DNA from: Sphingobacteriaceae bacterium
GTDB lineage: Bacteria; Bacteroidota; Bacteroidia; B-17B0; Aurantibacillaceae
Assembly: GCA_947453445.1 (NCBI GenBank)
Contig: CANGGP010000037.1
Span: 1-32,368, forward strand
Direction of reading: 5' to 3'
Length of the DNA: 32,368 nucleotides
The notes beneath the pieces are model-generated. The model saw only the letters and a program-made list of their open reading frames with translations, was not told where the DNA came from and did not search any database. Positions 26,174 to 29,512 of the stretch are shown piece after piece. Both the position numbers and the translations under genes were made by a program. The first letter of the stretch is position 1. The number at the start of each line of letters is the position of its first letter.

Positions 26174-26203
26174 TTTTGAATTTCAAATCAAATACTATCT
26201 TTG
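26174..26203 (+). promoter_or_regulatory. Bacteroidota-type promoter at the 5' end of the YfiR-like operon
   Basis: TTTTG (26174-26178), a 17-base spacer and TATCTTTG (26196-26203) match TTG-N17-23-TAnnTTTG. The motif lies inside the possible 5' coding region of the YfiR-like gene: the TTG at 26176 is both the -33 element and the most upstream candidate start codon, and the GTG at 26203 touches the -7 element. Promoter and start cannot both be as drawn. Confidence 0.45.
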
Positions 26204-26757
26204 TGAGATTAGTTAAACGTCTGAAGTCCCTTAACACATATCTATTACTCCTACTTTGCTTGATTTCCTTGCGTTTTCAGCAAGGCCCTTCAAGTTTTGA
26301 TGCGGTATCCAAAAACAAGGCCATATTTATTTATGGTTTTACCAAATACTTTGAATGGCCTGAAGATAAAAAAACGACCAACTTCATTATTTATGTTGTT
26401 GGAAAGAACGACAATTTAGTGGCTGAGTTAAAAAAATTGGCATCACTTAAAAAAGTGGGTGATCAGGAAATTGAAATCAAAAACACCACTTTAATCGACA
26501 ACAACATCAATCCCCACATTACAGTATTCACCCCTGAAAACGACATTAAAAACATCTCTGAAATGGCGGGTAAAATGAAATCAAAAGGTTCATTATTAAT
26601 TGCAGAAACGCCCGGAGCCTGCAAGGGCGGTGGTGCCGGCATTAATTTCTTATATATTGATTCTAAATTAAAATTTGAATACAAAGAAGATGCTGCTAAA
26701 AAGGCAGGTTTAAAAACAAAAGAAGATTTTAAAAAATTGGCCGTTGAAAATTATTGA
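26176..26757 (+). CDS. YfiR family protein (DUF4154), secreted
   Basis: 193 residues if started at the TTG at 26176. There is no in-frame ATG before the hydrophobic segment, and the GTG at 26203 is the alternative. A signal-type hydrophobic stretch ('TYLLLLLCLISL') is followed by the YfiR/DUF4154 domain. 'AIFIYGFTKYFEWPEDKKTTNFIIYVVG' is the family hallmark, and 'CKGGGAGINFLYIDSKLKFEYKEDAAKKAGL' closes it. In Pseudomonas, YfiR is a periplasmic repressor of the HAMP-diguanylate cyclase YfiN. Here it opens a tight operon with a secreted helical-repeat protein and a HAMP-SpoIIE phosphatase, which suggests it senses or restrains that phosphatase. The role is inferred from context. Confidence 0.8.
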   Translation: MNFKSNTIFVRLVKRLKSLNTYLLLLLCLISLRFQQGPSSFDAVSKNKAIFIYGFTKYFEWPEDKKTTNFIIYVVGKNDNLVAELKKLASLKKVGDQEIEIKNTTLIDNNINPHITVFTPENDIKNISEMAGKMKSKGSLLIAETPGACKGGGAGINFLYIDSKLKFEYKEDAAKKAGLKTKEDFKKLAVENY

Positions 26758-26777
26758 TTAATTTAACTTCGTATAAG

Positions 26778-27734
26778 ATGTGCAGGTTATGTAAAATATT
26801 AAAAAAACTACTTCTAAGTATCTCCATACTTATGAGTGCAACCATGCTTGCACAAGAAGATAAGTTAAGCAGAGCGCAGGGTTTAATGACCTCTGACCCT
26901 GCACAAGCTTTGCAGATAATGGATACGGTAATCCAACATCCGCAAACCAAAAACGACTTCTATACATGGACCATTCGCGCTTATATATACTATGAACTAT
27001 ACAAGAAAACTGAAAAGTTAAAATTACACTCTGCCATTCGTGATTCCATCCTTTCTTCAATGAAAACCTCAACAGAATTAAAACCCGATTCGGAGGCCGT
27101 GCAAAATATCAATCGCATGTATAAATCATTAGCGATAGGTTATAAAAAGATTGTAAAAGTGCTGTTGGAAGATTCTTTAAACTATGAAGGCAGCTTGGAA
27201 GCTTTTAATAATTACAAAAAACTATTACTTAAAATTGAACCAAAGCACAATTTTGAAGCCGACGATATCGAGTACAATTTAACAGTAGGAAGTTTCTTTT
27301 CTAACATCTTTAATGAAGACAATAAAAAGACCCGTGCCGGAGAAATTGCCAAAGTGGCTTTGTTAAAGGTTCTCGAATTGCAACCCACCAATTCAAGTGC
27401 CAACCTAAACTTGGGCCTCATGTACTATAACCAGGCAGCCAATTTGAGTAAGTCATTAGAATATGGCGCCGATTTCACCGAAATTGATGCCATTCAAGAC
27501 AACATGATTAAACTCGCTAAACAAAGTGAGAAACTAATCCGTACCGTTTACGATAATGACAATAAAAACACCAAATCTATTTTGGCACTGTATTATATTT
27601 ATCGCATGTTGGTCGACACACCTAAGTTTGAAGACTTTAAAAAGAAGTGTAAGGAAATGAATCTCGACATCGGCGAGAACAAACCTGCTGCTACTGAAGA
27701 AAATCAAAATAATCCGCAAAACAAAGACAAATGA
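26778..27734 (+). CDS. Secreted helical-repeat (TPR-like) protein of unknown function
   Basis: 318 residues from the ATG at 26778, which gives the signal peptide MCRLCKILKKLLLSISILMS... ending AQ. The frame is open upstream to a TTG at 26754 that overlaps the preceding gene's stop region. The mature part is alpha-helical with TPR-like pairs: 'AQGLMTSDPAQALQIMDTVIQ', 'FYTWTIRAYIYYELYKK', and 'SSANLNLGLMYYNQAANLSKSLEYG'. The tail is Asn/Gln/Glu-rich and disordered (about 295-318). I cannot name a family. Its last four bases overlap the ATG of the phosphatase gene, so the two products are probably made together and may interact in the periplasm. Confidence 0.8.
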   Translation: MCRLCKILKKLLLSISILMSATMLAQEDKLSRAQGLMTSDPAQALQIMDTVIQHPQTKNDFYTWTIRAYIYYELYKKTEKLKLHSAIRDSILSSMKTSTELKPDSEAVQNINRMYKSLAIGYKKIVKVLLEDSLNYEGSLEAFNNYKKLLLKIEPKHNFEADDIEYNLTVGSFFSNIFNEDNKKTRAGEIAKVALLKVLELQPTNSSANLNLGLMYYNQAANLSKSLEYGADFTEIDAIQDNMIKLAKQSEKLIRTVYDNDNKNTKSILALYYIYRMLVDTPKFEDFKKKCKEMNLDIGENKPAATEENQNNPQNKDK

Positions 27735-29512
27735 AAATCAGATTCACCATCGGAAGAAGAATTGGTTTAGGTTTTGCCACATTCATTATTTTAACTTCCA
27801 TCGCATTTATTTTAACGGTTGTAATTTCATCCGATAGTAAATCCAAAACCAGTGTAATGGTTGAAGAAGTTTCACCCAGCGTTGCTGAGTTGAAAGAGCT
27901 GAATTTAATGCTTCAGCGATCGCATACCGATATCGCCAAATGGTATTATAATCCAAGTTTTAATGATTTAGATTTTAGAAAAGAGTTGAAATCAATTATT
28001 AATGAGGAATATAAACTCAGAAAAAATCGCTTGTTGAAATATGCTTCTAAATGGGATAATAAAGAAGAAATTGACCAATTACATGTAATTTTTAATAGAA
28101 TTGAATCTTTGTTTAGAGTATACAAAGAAGAAATTATAGAACAATTAAATACACCTGAAGCATACGAGGATGCAAATATCAAAATTTTAGCCATCGACCC
28201 TTATGAGAGCTCTGAAAGCAACATCAAAATTATTTACAAAGACCTTGATAAGCTGATTAAATTAAAGGATGATTATGCCTTGAGTGTAAAGGACAATATG
28301 TTCGATTCATTGGATAATTTGATTCGAATCGTTATTTTATTGGGTATCATTTTAGCGGTAGGTGGAGTTGTGATTGGCGTGTTTACCACCCGATCAATTA
28401 CTGTACCAATACAAGTGCTCAAGAAAATGCTCTTATCAATGGGCTTGGGTATTCTCCCGAAAGAACGTGTGAGTGCCCGCGAGGATGAGGTTGGTGAAAT
28501 GGGCAATGCCTTAAACGATTTAATTCGTTCGATGGAACACACCACCGATTTTGCAAAAGAAACCGGTGCCGGAAATTTTGATGCCAAATACACACCTTTA
28601 AGTAAAGACGATACCCTCGGTTTGGCATTGATTAAAATGCGTGATGATTTGGCCGAAAACGAAAGATCACTCGAACAAAAAGTAATTGAAAGAACCGAAG
28701 AAGTGGTTCGCCAAAAGTCAGAAATTGAAAGTAAAAACGAAGAATTAGAAATACTCTATAAACAGGTAACCGATAGTATCCATTACGCCAAACGTATTCA
28801 AGATACCATTTTACCGGCTAACAGTAAAGTAAAAAACCTATTGCCTGATTCTTTTATTCTCTTCAAACCAAAAGACATTGTAAGTGGTGACTTTTATTGG
28901 ATTGAGAAGAAAGAAGATTTGGTTTACTTTGCTGCCGTTGATTGCACAGGACATGGCGTGCCGGGTGCGTTTATGAGCTTGGTGGGATACAATGTATTAA
29001 AAGACATTATTAAGAATAGCAAAGTCACAAAACCATCCGAAATATTAGATGCCATGCGTGAAGGTGTAATTAGCACCATGACCGTTGATGAATCGAAACA
29101 AGCCAAAGATGGTATGGACATGACCTTGTGTGCCATCAATTATGAAAAAATGGAATTACAATATGCCGCCGCATTTAATCCATTAATCATTGTTCGAAAT
29201 GGCGAATTAATCATGTACCAAGCCAATAAATTTCCAATTGGTGCATTTATCGGCGAAAAAACAAACTTCGACAACCATGTGATTCCACTTCAAAAAGGTG
29301 ATCAAATCTTTATCTTTAGTGATGGTTATGCCGATCAATTTGGCGGACCAAACGGTAAAAAATTCATGGTGGGTAACTTCAGGAAATTATTGGCCAATAT
29401 CGCCAGTCTATCGTCTCCGGCACAAAAGGAAAAACTGGATGAAACCTTGTTAACTTGGCAAGGTGGTCAAGAACAAGTAGACGACGTTTTAGTAATTGGG
29501 GTGAAGGTTTAA
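27731..29512 (+). CDS. Membrane HAMP-SpoIIE (PP2C-type) serine phosphatase
   Basis: 593 residues. TM1 is about 11-33 and TM2 about 198-219. Between them lies a ~165-residue helical periplasmic sensor resembling a four-helix-bundle chemoreceptor domain. A HAMP domain (about 219-275) and a coiled coil (about 305-350) follow, then the linker 'SIHYAKRIQDTILP' characteristic of Bacteroidota SpoIIE proteins. The PP2C/SpoIIE domain (about 365-590) keeps its metal aspartates in 'SGDFYW' (Asp387), 'DCTGHGVPGAF' (Asp404), 'GMDMT', 'FSDGYADQ' and 'VDDVLVIG'. Such phosphatases dephosphorylate anti-sigma-factor antagonists or other STAS-type proteins. No partner kinase or STAS protein is in the window. 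ATGA overlap with the preceding gene. Confidence 0.92.
   Translation: MKIRFTIGRRIGLGFATFIILTSIAFILTVVISSDSKSKTSVMVEEVSPSVAELKELNLMLQRSHTDIAKWYYNPSFNDLDFRKELKSIINEEYKLRKNRLLKYASKWDNKEEIDQLHVIFNRIESLFRVYKEEIIEQLNTPEAYEDANIKILAIDPYESSESNIKIIYKDLDKLIKLKDDYALSVKDNMFDSLDNLIRIVILLGIILAVGGVVIGVFTTRSITVPIQVLKKMLLSMGLGILPKERVSAREDEVGEMGNALNDLIRSMEHTTDFAKETGAGNFDAKYTPLSKDDTLGLALIKMRDDLAENERSLEQKVIERTEEVVRQKSEIESKNEELEILYKQVTDSIHYAKRIQDTILPANSKVKNLLPDSFILFKPKDIVSGDFYWIEKKEDLVYFAAVDCTGHGVPGAFMSLVGYNVLKDIIKNSKVTKPSEILDAMREGVISTMTVDESKQAKDGMDMTLCAINYEKMELQYAAAFNPLIIVRNGELIMYQANKFPIGAFIGEKTNFDNHVIPLQKGDQIFIFSDGYADQFGGPNGKKFMVGNFRKLLANIASLSSPAQKEKLDETLLTWQGGQEQVDDVLVIGVKV

Follow-up and report, generated by a model that had tools for sequence, protein, structure and literature searches.

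A conserved YfiR, TPR-like and HAMP-SpoIIE phosphatase gene triad as a candidate envelope-to-cytoplasm switch in Bacteroidota

The principal finding of this work was the identification, in a Sphingobacteriaceae bacterium (Bacteroidota), of a gene triad encoding a YfiR/DUF4154 protein, a secreted TPR-like protein and a two-transmembrane HAMP-SpoIIE phosphatase, arranged in tandem on the + strand of the 32,368-nucleotide stretch analysed here (hereafter the window, which lies on contig C37 of the 3.7 Mb draft genome G000). The three products probably act as one envelope-to-cytoplasm switch, in which the YfiR and TPR-like proteins would provide the input to a phosphatase acting on a SiaC-type protein. 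This reading draws on the conservation of the operon, on export signals in two of the proteins, on intact acidic sites in the phosphatase and on the occurrence, in the same genomes, of YfiR-transmembrane-SpoIIE fusions. The initial annotation of this DNA had proposed a YfiBNR-like switch with a phosphatase output, an interpretation that is partly supported: its outline is right, while its details are in part wrong and in part tentative.

As the initial annotation described, the three genes overlap or nearly overlap and encode proteins of these kinds, which was borne out by Pfam matches, hydropathy scans and open reading frame (ORF) calls (Table 1); the second and third genes share four bases (27731-27734). 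The yfiR product matches DUF4154 (PF13689) with an expectation value (E) of 6.4e-22 and 78.6 bits against a cut-off of 24.9. Its signal peptide is a by-eye call only, made on a short LLLLLCLISL stretch, and the 19-residue hydropathy scan gave no flag. The TPR-like protein begins with a hydrophobic stretch detected by the hydropathy scan and ending in ...MLAQ, and is all helix thereafter; Pfam TPR models match it below cut-off only. Its AlphaFold model (mbf52f3cfa369), built from the window sequence plus 67 of 78 chosen homologues, reached a predicted local distance difference test (pLDDT) score of 92.2, and its closest solved folds are mostly TPR proteins. The TM-scores, normalized to query length, are low (0.22-0.36 across the 20 top rows), the best match having an E of 1.3e-4 but a TM-score of 0.24. 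In the phosphatase, the hydropathy scan placed transmembrane stretches near residues 14 and 200, and the acidic residues D387, D404, D531 and D585, presumably its metal ligands, are invariant across 31 aligned sequences including that of the window.

A protein search with YfiR found matches in 83 of the 87 genomes of the window's order, and the surroundings of 78 of these matches were fetched (E up to 2.3e-19, from 76 genomes, the window's own excluded), weaker rows representing fusions and other YfiR genes being outside this count. The order yfiR-tpr-phosphatase, all on the same strand, was complete in 67 of the 78 loci. Among the 11 incomplete ones, nine stop at a contig edge, L106 has a split phosphatase frame, and L111 differs in that YfiR stands beside a hybrid kinase with CHASE8, which we take to be the periplasmic domain of YfiN. 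Ten extra loci, hand-picked for carrying these genes, were judged by the same completeness rule; nine are complete, including L225, which belongs to a different family in the class, and L214, from a metagenome-assembled genome titled Cytophagaceae; the sequence of L198, the one remaining, stops within the phosphatase. Altogether, 76 of 88 loci, ten of the 88 having been picked for it, preserve this order, with short intergenic gaps (medians of 10 and 6 bases in the ORF calls), and it persists while identity to the window proteins drops to 30% for YfiR, 22% for the TPR-like protein and 51% for the phosphatase. Clustering of the flanking genes gave 14 groups upstream and 32 downstream; the largest of these hold 51 of 74 and 24 of 75 neighbours, respectively, so that the neighbourhood is partly conserved too. 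Since the order remains constant while the flanks differ, the grouping goes beyond chance, and by this comparison of gene order the three genes form a conserved unit.

The proposal that YfiR sensing is wired to dephosphorylation is partly supported: this co-conservation beyond close relatives agrees with it, and natural YfiR-SpoIIE fusions lend it stronger support. G000 itself carries two further DUF4154 genes, each fused to SpoIIE in one chain. The layout of such fusions is an export signal, one or two YfiR domains, a charged stretch (probably coiled coil, judged by eye), one transmembrane segment and SpoIIE; 15 of them were found in 12 genomes, each with a transmembrane segment between the two parts in the hydropathy scan, and the fusion at L115 was confirmed by Pfam, with two DUF4154 copies. 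Elsewhere, in other families, the fusion partner of YfiR is a histidine kinase (L226-L230; for L226 and L230 also by Pfam). When 96 YfiR domains were placed in a midpoint-rooted tree, all 23 fused domains, of kinases and phosphatases alike, fell in one clade (support 99/89), so fused YfiR domains have exchanged the output behind them. The YfiR rows of the operons lie outside this clade and are not monophyletic, at least two changes being forced, with weak support for where L225 and L214 branch deep in the tree. An exchange is also indicated within the triad: the operon phosphatases of L039, L040 and L086 carry a different SpoIIE catalytic domain behind the usual sensor, that of L039 and L040 being 65-67% identical to the YfiR-SpoIIE fusion L126 and about 45% identical to the next operon phosphatases. 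The catalytic domain of L086, which belongs to another genus, is 87-88% identical to those of L039 and L040. Judged from these identities, the case is one of catalytic domain exchange and perhaps of transfer.

Outside the order, 34 DUF4154 loci (L226-L259) were opened, drawn from 62 rows of a phylum search that include four from G000 and one from genome G131. A CHASE8-labelled protein adjoins YfiR in 16 of them, and in 14 of these it is also kinase-labelled; five further loci are the YfiR-kinase fusions, and the remaining 13 have various or unclear neighbours. The CHASE8 label comes from a single-sequence search and is retained by 13 of the 16 in a larger search, and in Pfam the CHASE8 match exceeds the cut-off for L232 and L239 but falls short of it for L240, L256 and L257. 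A sensor of the window type also stands by YfiR with other domains behind it, in the next gene at L249 and in the next but one at L204 and L210. The proteins of these loci and of L205 consist of the window-type sensor and HAMP, then GAF and PAS (L210 by likeness to L204), and no Pfam output domain beyond GAF or PAS is listed for those of L204, L205 and L249. A further arrangement was seen at L114, L133 and L134, where a TonB-plug gene (by Pfam for L114) and YfiR are divergent from a HAMP-SpoIIE gene.

The periplasmic part of the phosphatase was modelled up to HAMP (m7ee29261f778) from 72 sequences, namely that of the window and 71 of 78 selected homologues, and is predicted to be all helix, with a pLDDT of 87.6 and a predicted template modelling score of 0.67. 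In a second look at the structure, the closest folds among the matches listed came for the most part from chemoreceptors and sensor kinases, as their helical ligand-binding domains. Two of the comparisons concern sensors solved with a periplasmic partner: the LytS domain complexed with XylFII (Z 15.2, 1.8 Å over 122 residues) and TorS complexed with TorT (Z 13.4, 3.1 Å over 124). Both are sensor bundles that bind periplasmic proteins resembling substrate-binding proteins, according to a table in the part of the source available (PMC6381276), and the YfiR fold resembles one half of a substrate-binding protein, as stated in the accessible part of its structural description (PMC4655355). Therefore, by analogy with these pairs, a direct contact between YfiR and the receptor bundle is plausible. 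The likeness has its bounds, since TorT-TorS and XylFII-LytS end in histidine kinases, YfiR is only half of that fold, and the window pairing is known from genes and a model. A search of the PDB with the YfiR alignment profile matched the solved YfiR structures only weakly (E 0.16). We hypothesize that YfiR contacts the helical bundle with the help of the TPR-like protein, or under its gating, the latter being a possible adaptor as the initial annotation suggested, and that the signal would be relayed by the second transmembrane segment, the HAMP domain and the coiled coil, which would set the dimer state of the PP2C domains. These would then strip phosphate from a SiaC-type (STAS-like) protein phosphorylated by a SiaB-type kinase, and the sign of control might be repression, as in Pseudomonas, or activation.

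With respect to YfiBNR of Pseudomonas aeruginosa, the resemblance lies in a periplasmic YfiR-family protein encoded beside a two-transmembrane HAMP signalling protein, and in modular outputs; in YfiBNR, YfiR acts by binding and inhibiting this membrane enzyme. As a working analogy the comparison stands, but its details do not carry over. YfiN has a PAS/CHASE8 receptor, whereas that of the window is predicted to be a helical bundle; the all-helix model, together with the lack of any CHASE8 (or GGDEF) match listed for the window phosphatase up to E 1, led us to reject a receptor of the YfiN type. The place of YfiB is taken in the window operon by the TPR-like protein, whose gene gave no OmpA/Pal (YfiB-like) match, YfiB not having been searched in the rest of the genome. 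The two conserved cysteine pairs of YfiR (PMC4655355, in its available part) are also missing, since the window YfiR has one cysteine past the signal peptide and no cysteine column exceeds 10 of 28 aligned sequences. The output is GGDEF in YfiBNR and a SpoIIE phosphatase in the window. In the portion available of Malone 2012, YfiR-YfiN[PAS] was proposed as a modular core, with histidine kinase, GGDEF-EAL, histidine phosphotransfer (HPT) and methyl-accepting chemotaxis protein (MCP) outputs (PMC3375315); in the accessible main text of that paper the word phosphatase occurs only in a reference title, the supplementary table being outside this check. A literature search for YfiR with PP2C or SpoIIE, which covered subscription papers in part, returned no report of a phosphatase output for YfiR; in the same literature DUF4154 is mentioned by one paper. 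Comparable as well are the Bacteroidota loci in which a membrane partner adjoins YfiR (YfiR-CHASE8-HAMP-histidine kinase at L111, L232 and L239) or is fused to it (L226-L230); these differ in their kinase output, in having a CHASE8 receptor or a direct fusion, and often in a TonB-receptor-like gene. The exchange of sensors among phosphatases, kinases and cyclases is a general idea in the available part of PMC12143880. YfiR modules with varied outputs are already known (Malone 2012), and what appears to be new here, within the literature searched, is the pairing of a YfiR input with a phosphatase output.

On the output side, the phosphatase matches the NCBIfam SiaA model (NF038263) over residues 265-592 with 188.8 bits, below the cut-off of 700, and its best solved relative is a 'putative serine phosphatase', 6k4e, which we take to be SiaA. 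By these matches, its catalytic part is SiaA-related and the protein is not SiaA itself. The SiaABCD system of P. aeruginosa, as described in the available parts of its reports (PMC7647112, PMC8457831), contains the HAMP-PP2C phosphatase nearest in sequence, and SiaB and SiaC occur likewise beside the L214 triad and elsewhere in the genomes. The limited extent of the SiaA match indicates that the sensor differs from that of SiaA, and the window has two secreted partners. SiaABCD also includes SiaD, whereas no GGDEF match, and so no SiaD, was found in any of 8 tested genomes of the window's family (none in 10 of the 11 tested altogether); therefore, a Pseudomonas-style cyclic di-GMP output seems unavailable. 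Genes for SiaB (DUF6272, PF19788, 1.4e-39) and SiaC (PF09345, 1.7e-42) directly follow the triad at L214, which makes a SiaC-type phosphoprotein the likeliest target. SiaC is present in 85 of the 87 genomes of the order, with 5 copies in G000, where a search with the L214 SiaB found SiaB-like genes adjoining SiaC on contigs C19 and C4, and thus away from the window triad. On C4, a SpoIIE gene lies alongside the pair, on the other strand.

Some of our observations weigh against the proposed switch, on its output side as well as on its input side. The C19 pair was considered as an orphan free for the window phosphatase, a candidacy weakened by the equivalent locus of relatives, which among the 20 opened has SiaB in 19 and a SpoIIE gene of its own in 10. 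Moreover, single SiaC genes coexist with many SpoIIE genes (one against 5 in G007, 26 in G059 and 34 in G078), so the phosphatases share SiaC or act on other proteins, and SiaC need not be the target of this one. RsbU-kind SpoIIE phosphatases act on RsbV-type STAS proteins, and G000 encodes a STAS frame of 118 amino acids (C107) and an RsbW-like ATPase frame of 139 (C2). A classical RsbV-type protein in an RsbV/RsbW switch could thus replace SiaC as the target, with the input side unchanged. We consider this unlikely, since the catalytic domain is nearest SiaA and since, of the complete triads, L214 alone had SiaB or SiaC in its fetched stretch and has both after the triad, STAS not having been sought beside the triads. 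SiaC is best regarded, on genomic grounds, as the likeliest but not the sole candidate target.

On the input side, SpoIIE is a direct neighbour of YfiR in none of the 34 loci outside the order (at L258 it is two genes away), and two of the five genomes of a 395-genome phylum sample with a full-length sensor-domain match (G135 and G272) have a close sensor homologue without an adjoining YfiR. Foldseek with the receptor model gave nothing under E 0.001 (the best being NarQ, 1.6e-3), and a Z value of about 13 is no proof, being common for helical bundles. The YfiR and TPR-like proteins could then sense or transport independently and be merely co-transcribed, while the phosphatase sensor binds a ligand of its own, as do those of its closest folds that bind nitrate, citrate or amino acids directly. 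This reading is about as improbable as an RsbV-type target, because the fusions of YfiR to SpoIIE and to histidine kinases, and the 16 outside YfiR genes beside a CHASE8-labelled protein, point to direct control. Co-conservation reaches beyond close relatives, to L225 and L214, and yet in the phylum sample a DUF4154 gene occurs in 39 genomes and the triad was seen in only two, the window's own and G131, so that it is rare outside the order. A phylum-wide search with the TPR-like protein was dropped as co-occurrence evidence, as nearly all listed matches (168 genomes) are partial and in longer frames; among them, G131 has the sole near-full match besides G000. With most examples in one family, and with the upstream neighbour often kept too, adjacency might reflect shared descent in one clade and no common function. 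This explanation is already disfavoured by the genomic comparison and hardly credible to us, given the low identities at which the order is kept, the 32 clusters of downstream genes, the triads in other families (L214, L225) and the fusions.

A further point concerns the translation start of yfiR. TTG 26176 is probably wrong as the start, and CTG 26221 is favoured, being sited behind the promoter at 26175-26203, whose form (TTTG-17-TATCTTTG) we take to be a Bacteroidota-type motif. The promoter TANNTTTG stands 21-42 bases ahead of the aligned yfiR start in all 35 rows of the window's genus, the window included, and 26 of these rows lack any ATG, GTG or TTG in frame with the gene, both in the column of CTG 26221 and ahead of it. 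In this column the genus has CTG in 30 of 35 rows, ATT in two and ATA in one; the remaining two have another codon there and an in-frame TTG earlier. In other genera the column holds TTG (12/12 rows in g10, 8/8 in g7, 3/4 in g3 and 1/1 in g5), with no TTG in the seven rows of g2, g4, g8 and g9. In a second alignment of 34 rows, CTG was used in 30 of the 31 rows having leucine at the start column, while nine other conserved leucine columns of yfiR showed mixed codons, with a top share of 24/33. ORF calls gave an ATG start to 64 of 67 phosphatase genes and 43 of 74 tpr genes. Thus, translation of yfiR seems to begin at a CUG codon that is conserved in the genus, and a start that is both weak and conserved fits a protein needed in low amount; the conserved non-AUG start may keep the YfiR supply low.

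Table 1. Coordinates of the triad and its elements in the window
Feature	Position	Strand	Description
Bacteroidota-type promoter (presumed)	26175..26203	+	TTTG-17-TATCTTTG; genus-wide TANNTTTG
yfiR	26221..26757	+	Signal peptide and DUF4154/YfiR domain, 178 amino acids; probable CTG start at 26221; PF13689 match
TPR-like gene	26778..27734	+	Secreted helical-repeat protein, 318 amino acids; alternative start TTG 26754
HAMP-SpoIIE (PP2C/PPM) membrane phosphatase gene	27731..29512	+	593 amino acids; PF07228 E 2.2e-19; NCBIfam SiaA E 1.7e-55 (under cut-off); 6k4e E 1.6e-53
Periplasmic helical-bundle sensor domain	27836..28318	+	Residues about 36-196; all-helix model
HAMP domain	28382..28534	+	Residues 218-268; PF00672 E 0.00019, 22.1 bits against a cut-off of 25 (under)
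Probable coiled-coil linker	28634..28777	+	Residues about 302-349; alignment by eye
SpoIIE/PP2C catalytic domain	28919..29506	+	Residues 397-592; PF07228 E 2.2e-19

Regarding the surroundings of these genes, an ABC (ATP-binding cassette) transporter ATPase gene lies upstream of the window yfiR. The upstream neighbour shared by 51 of 74 loci (for example L144:5333-5956; L212 and L213 included) is a gene of about 195 amino acids, divergent from yfiR, which is an extracytoplasmic function (ECF) sigma factor in the single member scanned and is often followed by a gene of 350-470 amino acids that looks anti-sigma-factor-like by eye. Downstream, L086 (genome G075) has the same genes as the window, for a ferredoxin and a LuxC-like protein. 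The core SiaB-SiaC locus of relatives was seen at L263, L264, L268, L270-L273, L277 and L278 to encode a sensor-SpoIIE protein of about 1,070-1,100 amino acids (shorter in L261), usually followed by a gene of about 250-320 amino acids, then SiaB and SiaC, and in most by two further conserved genes.

A broader version of the proposed switch, which we regard as possible but doubtful, is that YfiR serves as a general periplasmic input. Where GGDEF genes are not detectable, it would have acquired new partners, a helical-bundle receptor and a TPR protein, for SiaC dephosphorylation; it would also have been fused to phosphatases, and its dosage would be set by the conserved CUG start. The SpoIIE-SiaC systems of Bacteroidota have, to our knowledge, no identified signal, and the triad would offer them a candidate periplasmic input. 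If the switch operates as proposed, one periplasmic input family would govern second-messenger synthesis, histidine kinases and protein dephosphorylation, and such sharing of inputs would fit the coiled-coil mechanism proposed for RsbU-type phosphatases in the available part of that report (PMC12143880).

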